A DNA stretch of 64,000 nucleotides. Source: Halobacteria archaeon HArc-gm2. GTDB lineage: Archaea; Halobacteriota; Halobacteria; Halobacteriales; Haloarculaceae. The position numbers and the translations under genes are program-made. Positions 3,743 to 9,173 of the stretch are shown piece after piece. Under the pieces are notes generated by a model. The model saw nothing but the letters and a program-made list of their open reading frames with translations. It was not told the DNA's origin and did no database searches. How positions within the stretch are numbered: position 1 is the stretch's first letter; each line of letters starts with the position of its first letter. The stretch is from contig JAOPKE010000001.1 in assembly GCA_025517465.1 (NCBI GenBank), positions 897,657 to 961,656 of the forward strand, read 5' to 3'.

Positions 3743-5089
3743 CTACTCGGTGAGCTTGATCATGTTCCCGTTCTGGGTCACGTGGAGGTCCCGGCCGAGT
3801 TCGTAGCCCTGACTGGAACAGAGGTCCACGTAGGGCGCGAACCCTTTCATGTCCTGGTGGGCCGGGATGATGTTCTGGGGCTGGAGCGCGTCGATCATCT
3901 CGTAGTGACCCTCCTCGCGGAGGTGGCCCGAGACGTGGATGTCGTCGTAGATGCGGGCGCCCTGCATGCCCAGCAGTTTCTCGGACTGGTAGCGCTGGCC
4001 CTCGTTCGTCGGCTCCGGGATGACCCGGGCGGAGAAGATGACCTTGTCACCGTTCTCGAGTTCGTACGGCGTCTCGCCCCGTCCCATCCGGGTGAGCATG
4101 GCGCGCGGTTCCCCCTGGTGGCCGGTGACGATGGGCAGGAAGTTCTCCTTGCCGTCGTTCATGATCCGCTTGAACGTCCGGTCGACGGACTTCCGGTGAC
4201 CGTACATTCCCAGGTCCTCCGGGAAGTCGACGAAGTCGAGGCGCTCCGCGGTACCGGAGTACTTCTCCATCGACCGACCGAGGAGCACGGGCTGGCGGCC
4301 GATGTCGTCGGCGAACTCGACGAGCGACTTCACACGAGCGATGTGGGAGGAGAACGTGGTGGCGACGATGCCGCCGTCGTAGTCCTCGACGCTCGTCATG
4401 ACGTCCTTGAGGTGGCGACGCGCGACGGACTCGGAGGGCGTGCGGCCCTTCCGGCCGGCGTTGGTACAGTCCTCGATGTAACAGAGGACGCCCTCGCCCT
4501 CGCGACCGATCTCGCGGAAGCGTTTCATGTCGATGGGGTCGCCGATGACCGGCGTGTGGTCCATGCGCTTGTCCAGCCCGTAGACGACGGCGCCTTCGGG
4601 CGTGTGGAGGACCGGGTTGATCGCGTCGATGATCGAGTGCGTGACGTTGACGAACTCCAGTTCGGTCCGCTCGCCGATCTGCATCGTCTCGCCGGCGGAC
4701 ATCTTCTGGAGGTCGTTCTGGACGCCGAACTTCTCCTCGCCCTTGATCTGCTGTTTGACGAGTTCGATGGTGAACGGCGTCGCGACGATGGGCGCGTCGT
4801 AGCGGTGTGCCAGCTTGGAGATGGCGCCGATGTGGTCCAGGTGACCGTGGGTCGGCACGATGGCCTTGACGTCGCCCTCCAGTTCGGACATGACGCGGTC
4901 GTCCGGGATGGCGCCCATGTCGATGAGGTCGAGCGAGTGCATTCGCTCGGTCTCGACGTTGTCGTGAATCAGTACCTTCGAGAGGTTCAGGCCCATGTCG
5001 AAGACGACCACGTCGTCTCCGGCACGGACTGCCGTCATCTGTCGGCCGACCTCTTCGTACCCGCCGATTGTTGCGATTTCGACTTCCAT
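3743..5089 (-). CDS. rnj: ribonuclease J, archaeal beta-CASP metallo-nuclease
   Basis: 448 residues. A metallo-beta-lactamase/beta-CASP nuclease; archaeal members are 5'-to-3' exoribonucleases acting in mRNA and rRNA turnover. The HxHxDH metal site is HGHLDH at 81-86; a later His in the '[12 protein letters not shown]' stretch and the C-terminal 'IPAHQD' complete the expected ligand set. Start ATG at 5089. idsA follows 1 bp downstream. The best upstream TATA-like element (5339-5349) would give an unusually long leader of over 200 nt. Confidence 0.9.
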
Positions 5090-5453
5090 GGTTGTAGGTC
5101 CGAGGGAAGCCGTCCGCCTGCGGGGGAGTCCGACGCTACGACAGTGGACGGGTCGGTGCGCGTTGCACGCGACGCGTCCACCGAACTCGGAGGCCGTCCG
5201 GGTCGACCCGTAGCCCCCGAGTCGTTCGCTTGGGCCGGGGATCCGGTGATCCCCGTGACGGAAGCGTCCGTCGTCCGCCGGCCGTCTCCCGCATCCACGG
5301 ACGGCCGTGCGCTCGGTTACGAGGGGCTACGTGGCCGGGTGATAAAAACGCTGGTGGTTCCGGCGACGGGGAGTTCCACCGGCCAGTAGCCGCCGTATTC
5401 GACGGGACAGATTCGGAAAACAGCGAACCGTCGTGTGGTTCAGTCGCCGCCCG
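5090..5453. other. 364-bp region upstream of rnj
   Basis: No coding gene is supported. A minus-strand TATA-like element (CGTTTTTATCA, 5339-5349) is the clearest promoter candidate for rnj-idsA. If real, the rnj leader would be about 220 nt. I see no known riboswitch fold in it by eye. Confidence 0.4.
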
Positions 5454-5820
5454 ATAGTGGTGGTTGTAAGCCCGTACCGGCGTCCACGCGAACGAAGTGA
5501 GCGTGGGCTCGTTGGACGAGAGGAACGAGTCCAACGGCGTCCAGCCGAACTGCGTGAGGCCGGGCTCGATAGACGAACGGAGTGAGTCTATCGGCGTCCT
5601 GTCGAGCGTAGCGAGACAGGGCTCATCGGATGAGCAGCGCGAATCCGATGGCGTCCCGACGAGCATGGCGAGTCGGGGCCCGGGAGACGAGTGCAGCGAG
5701 TCTCCCGGCGTCCACGGGAACGGAGTGAGCGTGGGCTCGATAGACGAACGGAGTGAGTCTATCGGCGTTCGACGTGGCCGGTGCCGGCGAACGTCGGTAA
5801 AAAGTTACAACCACCACTAT
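5454..5820. repeat. ten-hairpin 57-bp array enclosed by a 16-bp perfect inverted repeat
   Basis: The ends are exact inverted repeats: ATAGTGGTGGTTGTAA at 5454-5469 and its complement at 5805-5820. Inside, 5480-5764 is exactly five 57-bp units. Each unit is GCGT, a 6-bp-stem hairpin, GCT (once GCC), and an 8-bp-stem hairpin. Hairpin centres are near 5495, 5523, 5552, 5580, 5609, 5637, 5666, 5694, 5723 and 5751. All ten loops are 11 nt of the form GA(N7)GA. Stem sequences differ between units, yet eight pair perfectly and two have one mismatch (5543/5561 and 5717/5729). It lies between rnj and the upstream membrane protein, whose stop codon falls in the right inverted repeat. Whether it acts as DNA or RNA is unknown. 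Confidence 0.9.
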
Positions 5821-7097
5821 GAGAGGCGGTCACCGAGCGGGTCGTCGTCGCCATCGACTTCGAAGGACGACACGCCCTCGTCGGCGAGGGTCAGGTCGTC
5901 GTCTTCGTCGTCTTCGTCGTCTTCGGGAGTGGCGCCGTCGTCGTCGCCGGTTTCGTCCGGCTCCGGGTCGGTAAAGTTCGGTTCGTCCTGCGCGAACAGA
6001 TCGTCCGAGCCGTCGTCGTCAGGCAGGTCGACAGCGTCCGTCGACTCGCTGGCGGCGGGTTCGGTCTGGCCGACGTCCGTCGTCTCGCGTTCCGTCTCGA
6101 TGCCGTTTCCGTCGGAGGCGCTCTGGACGTCGTCCCACGTCCTGACGGCGTCGTCGGAGCTAGAGTCGGCGTCCACCGCACCGACTGGCTCGTCCGTAGC
6201 AGTCTCGGCCCTCCTGTCGGGAGCCGGGTCCTCCGCCGGCTCGGACGACTGTTCGAACTCGGCCGGGTCCGGCGGCGTCCACTCGGCGCGGTCCTGATCC
6301 GCCGTCTCCGACACGGCGTCGCCGGTATCGTCGCCGGGGCTCCCAGAGTCAGTGGACGCCGCCGGTTCCTCGACGTCTCCGGCCTGGGTGCCGGTGGCGT
6401 ACTTCGAGTCCGTCCAGTCGTCGGCGGCCGAGGATTCGTCCACGAAGTCGTCGGCGTAGGGATGGCTCTCGACGTCAGTCCGGGACGGCGACGGGCCGGC
6501 ACCGTCCATCGCCTGTTGGTCCGGTCCCTCGGCACCGGACGGCGGTCCCCCGTCGGGCTGTCCGGCAGACGGCGCCGGCTCGCTCGTCGGTGGTTCCGGT
6601 GGGTCCCGGTGGGCCGCGTCGTCTACCGGGCGATCCGTCGCCGGTTCCCCGGTCACGGTCCCCGTGGTGTCTTCGCCGTCGAGCGGCGTTTCGTCCGCCT
6701 CGGGGGCCGCCGCGGGCTGGTCGGCGTCGGGAGACTCGTCGTCCGCCGCCGCTTCGTCCGCGTCGACGTCGCCCTCGCCCTCGATCGAGGTGTCAGTCAC
6801 CGTCGTTCCAGTCGTCGACGCGACGGCGACGGCCGCCGCGTCCGCGAGCAGTTTATGCACAAGGCCGAACAGCCCCGACAGGCCGACGACGACACCGAGC
6901 AATGCGAGTAGCGCACCCGCGATGGCGCTTCCCGTCGCGAGAGACGCGAGTGACGGAGCCGCCAGATTCAGGCCGCCGGTCGCCGCGACCGCGACGCCGG
7001 CGACGACGAAAACGCCGGCCACCACGACGACGGCGACGAGATATCCCAGAAATTTGGCCCCGTACTTGAACACGCCGGGGAGCCCTACAGCTACCAT
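5817..7097 (-). CDS. membrane-anchored protein with long acidic disordered tail
   Basis: 426 residues; not recognised as a named family. Two hydrophobic segments at about residues 12-38 and 50-85 are followed by some 330 residues rich in Asp, Glu, Ser, Pro and Thr with no globular pattern, ending DDPLGDRLS. The ATG at 7097 is preferred over in-frame starts at 7112/7115 because a TATA-like ATATTTGAC lies about 30 bp upstream, fitting a leaderless mRNA. It sits between ipk and rnj. The stop codon (5817-5819) is supplied by the inverted repeat of the adjoining hairpin array, so the true C-terminus may once have been different. Confidence 0.7.
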   Translation of the reverse strand: MVAVGLPGVFKYGAKFLGYLVAVVVVAGVFVVAGVAVAATGGLNLAAPSLASLATGSAIAGALLALLGVVVGLSGLFGLVHKLLADAAAVAVASTTGTTVTDTSIEGEGDVDADEAAADDESPDADQPAAAPEADETPLDGEDTTGTVTGEPATDRPVDDAAHRDPPEPPTSEPAPSAGQPDGGPPSGAEGPDQQAMDGAGPSPSRTDVESHPYADDFVDESSAADDWTDSKYATGTQAGDVEEPAASTDSGSPGDDTGDAVSETADQDRAEWTPPDPAEFEQSSEPAEDPAPDRRAETATDEPVGAVDADSSSDDAVRTWDDVQSASDGNGIETERETTDVGQTEPAASESTDAVDLPDDDGSDDLFAQDEPNFTDPEPDETGDDDGATPEDDEDDEDDDLTLADEGVSSFEVDGDDDPLGDRLS

Positions 7098-7122
7098 GTC
7101 TGTGACAATCATCAACGTCGGT

Positions 7123-7149: not shown

Positions 7150-7923
7150 TTACCGTGTCTCGATGGTCGTTCCCGGCGACTCGCCCGCGACGAAGGCGTC
7201 CAGGGCGTCGGGAGCGAAAATCTGGGCCGGGACCCCCAGGTCAAGTAGAGCGCGGACCTTGCCCGCCATCCCGCCGGTGACGTCCGTCGCCTCACTCGCA
7301 CCGAGGAGATCGGCCACCTCGTCGAAGGCCCCGATCCGGTCGACGACGGCGTCGTCACCGTCCAGCACGCCGGGTACGGTCGAACAGACGCCGACGCGGG
7401 TCGCTCCCACTGCTGGCGCGAGTTCGACGACGAGTTCGTCCCCCGAGAGGACGGTGACGCCCTCGCCAGCGTGGACGACGCCGTCGCCGTGGAGGACCGG
7501 GACGAACTCCTCGTCGAGCATGCCCGTGATCTGCGCCGTCGGGAGTGAGAGTTGGCCGTCGTTGTCCCTGGACGCGGCCGAGAGCGGGTGGACGGGCAAC
7601 GCCGGGACGCCTTCGTCCTGAAGCGCGTCCACCACGACCCGGTTCAGTTCGACCATCGCGCCGTGGATGGCCAGTGCACTGCTCGCGTCTCGGGTTCCCT
7701 CGTCCGTACTCACTCCGTGTTGCGCCGCGTGGTGGTGCCCGAAGCTCCCACCGCCGTGGACGACGACCAGCGATCCGTCGAACGCGGCGAGGGCGCGCGC
7801 CGCGTCCGCGAGCGCGTCGTCGTCGACGGTCTCCCGTTCCGTCTTCTCCGTGACGACGCTCCCGCCGAGTTTGACGACGAGCGTCTCGTTCTCGGTGGAC
7901 CGGCCGGCGTTCGGCCCACTCAT
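7150..7923 (-). CDS. ipk: isopentenyl phosphate kinase
   Basis: 257 residues, amino-acid kinase fold. Phosphorylates isopentenyl phosphate to isopentenyl diphosphate, the last step of the archaeal modified mevalonate pathway. N-terminal VVKLGGS (residues 16-22) and VVVHGGGSFGHHH (53-65) carry the nucleotide/phosphate-binding glycines and the histidines typical of IPK. The ATG at 7923 overlaps the mvk stop by 4 bp (ATGA), showing translational coupling with mevalonate kinase; longer in-frame upstream starts lie inside mvk and are rejected. Confidence 0.94.
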   Translation of the reverse strand: MSGPNAGRSTENETLVVKLGGSVVTEKTERETVDDDALADAARALAAFDGSLVVVHGGGSFGHHHAAQHGVSTDEGTRDASSALAIHGAMVELNRVVVDALQDEGVPALPVHPLSAASRDNDGQLSLPTAQITGMLDEEFVPVLHGDGVVHAGEGVTVLSGDELVVELAPAVGATRVGVCSTVPGVLDGDDAVVDRIGAFDEVADLLGASEATDVTGGMAGKVRALLDLGVPAQIFAPDALDAFVAGESPGTTIETR

Positions 7924-8903
7924 TCGATCCGGACCCCTTCCGTATCGAGTTCGGCTCTGAACGCGTCCTCGCAGCCCGGCGTGTAGCTCAGCGCGGTCAG
8001 GGCGTCCTCGCTCTCGTCGAGGGCGACGATGCAGCCACCGCCGCCCGCGCCCGTCAGTTTCGCCCCGAGCGCGTCGGCGTCGCGAGCAGCCCAGACCATG
8101 CTGTCGAGCGAGCGCGAGGAGACCCCCAGCGCGGAGAGCAACCCGTGATTGAAGTTCATCAACCGGCCGACTTCTTCGACGTCTCCTTCGACGAGTGCGC
8201 GTTCGCCCTGCCGGACGAGGTCGCCGATGGCGGTGACGGTGTCCGCCGCGAAGTCGTAGCGGTCTTTGACGTCTCGAACCCCGGCCACGAGCGCTCCCGT
8301 GTCGCCGGCACCGCCGTCGTATCCCACGACGAGCGGGAGGTTGTCCACGCCGTCGATGGTCCGGCAATCGTCCCCCTCGACGCGGACGGCGCCACCCATC
8401 GCCGAGCAGAACGTGTCCGCTCGCGAGGCCTCGCCCTGCTGGACGGCGTGTTCGACCTGATACGCCCGTGCAGCGACCTCCCGGCCATCCAGTTCGATGC
8501 CGAGTTCAGCCGTCGCGGCCCTGATGGCGGCCACGGCGACGGCCGCGGACGAGCCCAGCCCCGCCCCGAGCGGAATGTCGCCCTCGACGGTGATGTCGAA
8601 GCCCGCGTCCGGCGCGCCCGCGGCTTCCCGGGCCTGTTCGATGGCCTCGTTGACGTACCCCATGCCCGCGTCCACGAGCGAGTCCGAGACGTCGACGTCC
8701 GGTCTGTCGTCGTCCGAACTGTCGTACTCGACGGTGAAGCCGTCGATGGTGAGGTCCTGCAGGTTGACGCGGACCCCCTCGTCGCGTTCCTCGACGGTCA
8801 CCTGCGCCCGACGTTCGATGGCGCAGGGCACCGCCGGTTCCCCGTAGACGACCGCGTGCTCCCCGAACAGATACACTTTGGCGGGAGCGCTCGCTGTTAC
8901 CAT
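7920..8903 (-). CDS. mvk: mevalonate kinase
   Basis: 327 residues, GHMP kinase family. Phosphorylates mevalonate at C5. PLGAGLGSSA at 111-120 is the ATP-binding GHMP motif; the N-terminal 'APAKVYLFGEH' and C-terminal 'LTGAGGGG' are the other family signatures. ATG at 8903. Coupled to ipk by a 4-bp overlap. In many haloarchaea mvk follows rps2 directly (general knowledge); here a repeat tract, a P450 and two membrane proteins intervene. Confidence 0.95.
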   Translation of the reverse strand: MVTASAPAKVYLFGEHAVVYGEPAVPCAIERRAQVTVEERDEGVRVNLQDLTIDGFTVEYDSSDDDRPDVDVSDSLVDAGMGYVNEAIEQAREAAGAPDAGFDITVEGDIPLGAGLGSSAAVAVAAIRAATAELGIELDGREVAARAYQVEHAVQQGEASRADTFCSAMGGAVRVEGDDCRTIDGVDNLPLVVGYDGGAGDTGALVAGVRDVKDRYDFAADTVTAIGDLVRQGERALVEGDVEEVGRLMNFNHGLLSALGVSSRSLDSMVWAARDADALGAKLTGAGGGGCIVALDESEDALTALSYTPGCEDAFRAELDTEGVRIE

Positions 8904-8947: not shown

Positions 8948-9173
8948 GTCGGGGCGCGAGCGAAGCGAGCGGCCCGACGTTTGAGCGAACGGCGACCAGC
9001 GGGAGCCGTGAGCAGGTCGGGCTCGAACGAAGTGAGAGGCCGACAAATGTGCGAGCGGGAGCCGAGCGGGCGCGAAGCGTCCGCGTTGCTCGAACGGGGA
9101 GGAACGACCCGTGAGAGCGACCGAAGGGAGCGACACGCGAGCAGGTCGGCGCCGAGCGCAGCGAGGGGGCGAC
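8948..9173. repeat. hairpin-repeat tract between P450 and mvk
   Basis: This fills most of the 302-bp gap. Clear hairpins are 8948-8978 (10-position stem, one mismatch), 9016-9044 (9-position stem, one mismatch) and 9145-9173 (two mismatches). Each has an 11-nt loop of GA(N7)GA; the loop at 9025-9035 is identical to the first loop of the 5.5-kb array. Spacing is near 65 bp, with GAGCAGGTCGG recurring before stems. The tract starts about 33 nt past the P450 stop codon on the minus strand, so it may lie in its 3' untranslated region or in the mvk leader. Confidence 0.75.

Follow-up and report, generated by a model that had tools for sequence, protein, structure and literature searches.

What is the 367-bp insert at positions 5454-5820, between a ribonuclease J gene and the gene of an acidic protein, in the 64,000-nucleotide stretch of haloarchaeal DNA analysed here (the window)? 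The source genome (G000) comprises 4.25 Mb in 18 contigs, and the window corresponds to G000:C1:897657-961656; its rRNA is archaeal, and its acidic proteins, together with a named match in Halovenus, suggest a haloarchaeon. An initial annotation described five 57-bp units within a perfect 16-bp inverted repeat, and both were found exactly where it had placed them—five 53-nt double hairpins (5484-5536, 5541-5593, 5598-5650, 5655-5707 and 5712-5764) recur with a period of 57 bp between the arms of the repeat (5454-5469 / 5805-5820). We consider it likely that the insert is a MITE copy, inserted with a 3-bp duplication and carrying five tandem copies of a separate 57-bp double-hairpin cassette that probably moves by itself. 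The features are as follows.

3743..5089, minus strand: ribonuclease J gene, first gene past the element
5452..5454: target duplication of 3 bp, left copy, CGA (a single CGA at the empty site in the congener G006)
5454..5469, plus strand: left terminal inverted repeat of the MITE, ATAGTGGTGGTTGTAA
5454..5483, plus strand: left part (30 bp) of the 82-bp MITE; its last bases, CCGGCGT, mark the cassette position (82-bp copies join it straight to the right 52 bp)
5484..5540, plus strand: cassette 1 (hairpin A 5484-5506, linker, hairpin B 5510-5536, GCGT; covariance model 69.7 bits)
5541..5597, plus strand: cassette 2 (hairpin A with one mismatch; 72.3 bits)
5598..5654, plus strand: cassette 3 (70.2 bits)
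5655..5711, plus strand: cassette 4 (linker GCC; 67.5 bits)
5712..5768, plus strand: cassette 5 (hairpin A with one mismatch; 68.7 bits)
5769..5820, plus strand: right 52 bp of the 82-bp MITE
5805..5820, minus strand: terminal inverted repeat on the right side of the MITE
5820..5822: target duplication of 3 bp, right copy, TGA, one base different from the left CGA
5817..7115, minus strand: acidic protein gene without a Pfam match at E 0.001; the MITE end provides its stop codon, TAG (5817-5819)

Both hairpins of a cassette carry their GA loops on the same strand. The stems and fixed linkers reported initially hold for most of the array: eight of the ten stems are perfect, but the first hairpins of units 2 (5541) and 5 (5712) contain one mismatch each, and the linker of unit 4 reads GCC rather than GCT. 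What was described as an 11-nt loop is structured inside—a tandem GA/GA mismatch, two base pairs and a triloop, in the order GA, two pairs, triloop, two pairs, GA—and the outer of these pairs covaries. Predicted folding of the 367-nt stretch is strong in every setting (z of -6.0 and -8.0 for the plus and minus strand as DNA, -10.4 and -9.4 as RNA), with none of 100 shuffles folding equally well in any of the four runs. A CRISPR array was rejected on anatomy, in agreement with the initial annotation, the cassette arrays having neither a constant repeat nor a spacer. Elsewhere in the window, a lone type B hairpin, i.e., half a cassette, lies on the plus strand at 8949-8976, just past the gene at 7920-8903 (18.9 bits, E 0.01). 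The ribonuclease J gene region has a second copy in its own genome (G000:C13:180655-181444, 87% identical), and further copies in G006 and G004.

The inverted repeat had been taken for an outer stem closing the array, a view that found no support because the same repeat also bounds 82-bp copies free of any array. Allowing up to three mismatches, the 16-bp terminal word was found in its own genome at 62 places in forward and 63 in reverse orientation, against 9 and 1 for a reversed-pattern control. Among the loci fetched from this genome, we counted 49 distinct two-ended copies, 28 of which measure 82 bp and others 60 to 109 bp. Copies that bear cassettes are 138, 139, 167, 196, 310 or 367 bp long; 139, 196, 310 and 367 bp equal 82 bp plus 1, 2, 4 and 5 times 57 bp. 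The two ends are identical in 34 of the 49 copies, and mismatches between ends average 0.59 within a copy versus 1.25 between copies. One 82-bp copy, folded as DNA, pairs along almost its whole length (z of -10.0 and -11.5 for the two strands). With terminal inverted repeats, small size, no coding capacity, many copies and a target duplication, the outer element has the features of a MITE. Some copies share only the MITE ends around another core (L069 and L073, 108-109 bp), the pattern that a transposase working on the ends in trans would produce. This second core, about 108 bp long and sharing the terminal repeats, lies at L069 1501-1609 and L073 1501-1608 and near position 2431 of L101, where one end only is clear; in its middle it is unlike the 82-bp core.

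The MITE family is narrow: an 82-bp copy with its flanks found matches in 9 of the family's 116 genomes, of which only those in G000 and G006 were strong, and the exact pair of terminal repeats gave no match in a genome contig collection, a search restricted to exact ends in a collection that possibly leaves out near genomes. By eye, no gene-enclosing pair of terminal repeats that could mark an autonomous element was seen among 100 of the 125 places bearing the word in the 18-contig genome. Likewise, the word has no facing partner with up to three mismatches in eight viral contigs; in two of them (L140 and L141), a word with four mismatches faces it at a distance of 1.8 kb, which may be chance.

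The flanks of the 49 copies record how the MITE inserts. The base next to the element is equal on both sides in 48 of them (24 C/C and 24 G/G), position -2 is T in 47 and position +2 is A in 45, and the 3-bp duplication is identical in 39. This pattern is consistent with a duplication of three bases, TGA or TCA, at C-TSA-G targets. By eye, all 12 two-ended copies from 13 loci of G006 obey the base rule as well; G006 is a congener that is 97% identical over 791 bp of the next gene and that lacks the whole window insert. In this relative, the site of the insert is empty and reads CGA once, in place of the CGA and TGA of the window; the duplication of the window copy is thus imperfect. A clean empty site (CTCAG) was found in G006 for the 82-bp copy L028 and, conversely, the G000 site of a G006 copy is empty as well, but with base differences in the target word. 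The duplications at the ends and the empty sites bear out the suggestion, made in the initial annotation, that the insert could be a mobile non-autonomous element.

A further property of the MITE is its position relative to genes, which were called with a codon-usage gene caller written for this analysis and trained on the window. In 34 of the 49 copies, and in 7 of 12 in G006, the duplicated TGA coincides exactly with the stop codon that ends a called gene. As a control, CTSAG was located in the window and in 50 fetched stretches: of 166 such words, 19 were stop codons, 86 coding sites and 61 others; the excess of stop codons at MITE copies is significant against all 166 words (Fisher p 8e-15) and against the 80 non-coding sites (4e-7). 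Because a frame ending at this TGA already ended there before the insertion, the duplication keeps the gene intact. This location may reflect either targeting or survival. The window copy is an exception to the stop rule: judged by eye from the empty site in G006, the acidic protein now ends in ...DRLS, not ...DRLSGGD, such that the MITE cuts three residues off its neighbour and itself supplies the TAG.

If the outer element is a MITE, what is the 57-bp unit that it carries? Units were collected with a regular expression that fixed only the GA..GA loops and the linker and left the stems free. The fetched loci yielded 87 units (46 in G000, 25 in G006, 13 in G004 and 3 in G026), in which all six hairpin A pairs form in 67 and at least 9 of the 14 pairs in 85. 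The two units with fewer than nine pairs were dropped; of the 78 distinct units, 74 were aligned, one having been removed for fewer than 10 pairs and three others, a pair of overlapping half-units from L019 and one from L024, by choice. Across these 74, 94.3% of the cells are paired, as opposed to 77.0% after shuffling and 23-37% with the partners slid by one to three columns. The covariation score reaches 0.517 versus 0.175 in shuffled alignments, and pairs changed on both sides number 13 versus 9.9, a value reached by 2 of 500 shuffles. A further one of the five measures, the number of additional pair types, shows no excess (38 versus 36.2, reached by 121 of 500 shuffles). At pair 3 of hairpin A, all four Watson-Crick types occur. 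Within the loop, 93 of 110 distinct hairpins have A-T, G-C or C-G as their first inner pair, against 64 in the best of 5000 shuffles.

The cassette extends far beyond the MITE. Of 59 relatives, 30 have matches to array DNA from the window, and a covariance model of the unit—the check that the initial annotation had proposed—found it in 155 of 194 genomes of the class and in 56 of 65 genera (E 1e-5 or better). Searched over the phylum (E 0.001), the model matched 13 of 100 genomes, i.e., 13 of the 15 from the order of the window and none of the 85 outside it. Among the distant best matches, 33 of 40 fit the gapless geometry, and in 30 distinct distant units the stems pair: 177 of 180 cells in stem A (shuffled mean 58%) and 208 of 240 in stem B (66%), in a set biased towards pairs by a model that rewards pairing. 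Most of the distant stems are new relative to the genus (14 of 17 for A, 15 of 18 for B). The architecture is therefore found in other genomes with its pairing kept, and the outcome named in the initial annotation as its own refutation did not occur.

The loop word GARCGNAGYGAG occurs 439 times in its own genome against 117 for the reversed word, by eye the largest gap among 145 genomes, and lone dispersed hairpins may be far more numerous than arrays. In phage and plasmid collections, no phage record with a cassette was found, and one plasmid match was obtained, a 37-bp segment of a Halovenus salina plasmid (L167 1501-1537). There, a hairpin unit lies in frame and antisense within a gene annotated as a transposase, beside tnpA and just before a GVDIGE motif; we take this gene to be TnpB. 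No description of the cassette was found among the titles and abstract openings listed, and the papers listed for words of the loop motif bear titles unrelated to archaeal repeats.

Two groups of loci deserve mention beside this survey. At L201, L210, L215, L216 and L225, cassettes lie by eye in partial duplicates of tRNA-Phe or tRNA-Leu beside an intact tRNA gene, a setting that resembles the integration sites of islands. Insertion into functional tRNAs was ruled out by eye, the cassettes sitting in the partial duplicates beside the genes; Rfam searches at 20 cassette loci returned only tRNAs beside cassettes. At L199, L202, L204, L206 and L213, from five genomes, the flanks on both sides of the cassette are much alike while the stems differ; with no Rfam match, this region is possibly a conserved RNA of a new type.

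Although most cassettes are intergenic, some reside inside protein genes, and two of these point to single insertion events. In G277, a cassette lies in frame in a Kae1/TsaD gene (Pfam TsaD); all five congeners compared lack exactly those 57 columns, and one of them, G367, has GACGGCGT at the empty site. The methionyl-tRNA synthetase gene of G278 contains an exact 57-bp in-frame cassette that is absent from 14 of 15 aligned relatives, the remaining one keeping a decayed copy (the alignment took in 15 of 20 relatives). By eye, reading frames also run through cassettes in genes that presumably encode histidine kinases in G269 and G006 (three units in the latter), and in one from G077 that we take to belong to the beta-lactamase fold. 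A coding-score test placed a cassette inside a gene at 4 of the 40 distant loci and at 1 of the 39 near ones; both kinase cases fell below its cut-off, and one of the four distant calls, at L197, is doubtful because it depends on a reverse frame. As a separate observation, two cassettes at L164 (G004:C1:1866400-1869600) score in frame in a called gene, with about 227 codons open before and 263 after them.

How, then, do arrays of exact 57-bp steps arise? The word in front of the cassette offers a lead. Of 77 first units, 43 are preceded by GGCGT, and positions -5 and -1 are G and T, respectively, in 74 each; of 40 inner units, 37 follow the word; among distant first units it stands in 8 of 35. 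A fixed target is not proven in the distant genomes, because the left and right cassette words agree only partly. Each cassette ends in GGCGT, and the left arm of the MITE carries this word too. Comparison of the same loci in G000 and G006 revealed differences of one 57-bp unit (L011/L148 and L023/L119), lengths of 167 versus 253 bp within the same MITE copy and the same flanks (L019/L149), and, in L015/L151, an equal number of units but other hairpins. A search for relatives without the L015 array reached only G006 and apparent paralogues at 69-73% identity. Arrays thus turn over by units and by modules.

This turnover changes how the stem contrasts of the window are to be read. Pairing partners that change together between units had been interpreted as covariation within one locus and as a sign that folding is kept. 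That argument is weakened: the same hairpin types are found at numerous loci, and orthologous arrays differ by whole modules, so the contrasts within an array are probably imported modules for the most part, and, given turnover by units and modules, they are by themselves no record of compensatory mutation. Compensatory changes are seen instead between cassette types, across loci and genomes.

The same data invite an explanation in which the cassettes do not move at all. They could form a hairpin minisatellite that changes by slippage or unequal exchange, its stem arms matched by template switching without selection for folding; template switching can perfect imperfect palindromes. Both the 57-bp steps and whole-module differences between orthologous arrays and a 140-bp piece that two arrays share at 99% identity would follow naturally from such a process. 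However, an insertion step is needed to account for clean additions of one 57-bp cassette to conserved genes at unrelated sites, and copying of one arm from the other should erase the GA/GA mismatch, which is kept while the pair inside it covaries (in 93 of 110 hairpins, against at most 64 on shuffling). We therefore consider this explanation unlikely and retain a mobile cassette as the preferred reading.

A function at the RNA level—a transcribed structured RNA, or a switch or terminator between genes—would agree with the strong predicted RNA folding, which is found on both strands, and with the mostly intergenic position of the cassettes. The arrangement of the loci argues against it. The GA strand runs opposite to both neighbouring genes in the window but, by eye, along the neighbours in L015, the whole insert is missing from a close relative and unit numbers differ, and cassettes occur inside reading frames. 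Moreover, a known Rfam RNA was rejected: no family scored above its gathering threshold on the array, the only Rfam matches of the window being 23S, 5S and one tRNA elsewhere. We regard an RNA function as very improbable.

Returning to a mobile cassette, we start from what the loci display, namely MITE insertion with duplication, presence or absence of single 57-bp cassettes in genes, unit-wise differences and conserved pairing with free stems. The cassette would be recognised as a folded single strand, with the constant GA/GA mismatch, the inner pairs and the triloop serving as a putative recognition mark and the stem sequence being free to vary, and it would join behind GGCGT. Since each cassette ends in GGCGT, the target would be rebuilt and arrays could grow by re-use of the word; serial insertion or unequal exchange at GGCGT could then produce arrays of exactly 57-bp steps. 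The MITE, for its part, offers GGCGT in its left arm and would carry the cassettes along on moving. In its widest form, for and against which we see about equal weight, the proposal is that haloarchaea harbour a class-wide family of mobile 57-bp double-hairpin cassettes, an archaeal counterpart of REP and RPE elements, that spread as folded single strands, enter behind GGCGT in frame even in universal genes, rebuild their target so as to build up exact arrays and ride in a MITE specialised on TGA stops, each of which is restored by the duplication.

Which enzyme would move such a cassette? A Y1 single-strand transposase (HUH, IS200/IS605-type), using the word before the hairpin as a guide, suggests itself, and the cassette would then be a REP-like element. 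Its anatomy agrees in three points with that given for E. coli REPs in the available part of the source—a conserved short 5' word, a free stem and conserved stem mismatches (PMC8266576)—and, within the genus, GGCGT stands at both cassette ends. Yet 4 of 10 cassette-bearing genomes lack any match to PF01797, and no cassette was found in the 16 scanned of 18 Y1 loci, the two unscanned ones being pieces of broken genes. We rate a Y1 mover as improbable, although a diverged or lost Y1 enzyme may have played this part.

If the proposal is right, a whole archaeal class possesses a REP-like family of DNA that adds to proteins in frame and whose mover enzyme is still to be found, while a second element uses a harmless place in the gene, the stop codon. 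Hairpins with a fixed GA/GA mark and free stems would also be a ready substrate with which to fish for the enzyme.

Among known systems, the nearest composite appears to be the BrickBuilt MITE of Porphyromonas gingivalis, as characterised in the accessible portion of its description (PMC4596501). It likewise bears terminal inverted repeats around a tandem array predicted to form stem-loops, and it is multicopy and intergenic. Its array, however, repeats a 23-nt sequence in tandem, whereas the units described here are two hairpins with different but pairing stems, and the cassette unit also occurs outside the MITE and across a whole class; the terminal repeats look unlike by eye. The small mobile repeats (SMRs) and MITEs of Haloquadratum walsbyi, also a haloarchaeon, are comparable—likewise inverted-repeat elements of 80-110 bp without a transposase, in many copies and nested—but, in the part of the source available, SMRs have no target duplication (PMC3119063), whereas the outer MITE duplicates TGA/TCA, often on stop codons.

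The cassette itself invites comparison with the REP/BIME elements of bacteria and with the palindromic elements of Rickettsia. According to the section of the source at hand, REPs are similarly short palindromes behind a conserved word, with a stem mismatch in E. coli, tandem multiples and a mostly intergenic location (PMC8266576). In contrast to them, the cassette follows GGCGT or a similar word instead of GTAG, its hairpins share one orientation and do not form inverse pairs, no linked TnpAREP (Y1) gene was found, and the hosts are archaea. E. coli REPs have a conserved stem mismatch that, in the same section, is needed by their transposase (PMC8266576), and the constant GA/GA mismatch of the cassette is reminiscent of it. 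RPEs, as presented in the available part of PMC10969869, are likewise palindromic cassettes that form in-frame additions in unrelated protein genes, as some of our cassettes do; they measure about 150 bp rather than 57 bp, and the GA-mismatch double hairpin, the exact tandem arrays and the domain of life set the archaeal cassette apart. We thus read the cassette as a REP/RPE-like mobile palindrome that would rebuild its own target. By the features tested, the outer element is classed as a MITE, and the cassette, compared with RPEs by features and not by sequence kinship, appears to work like a REP or an RPE while fitting the definition of neither.
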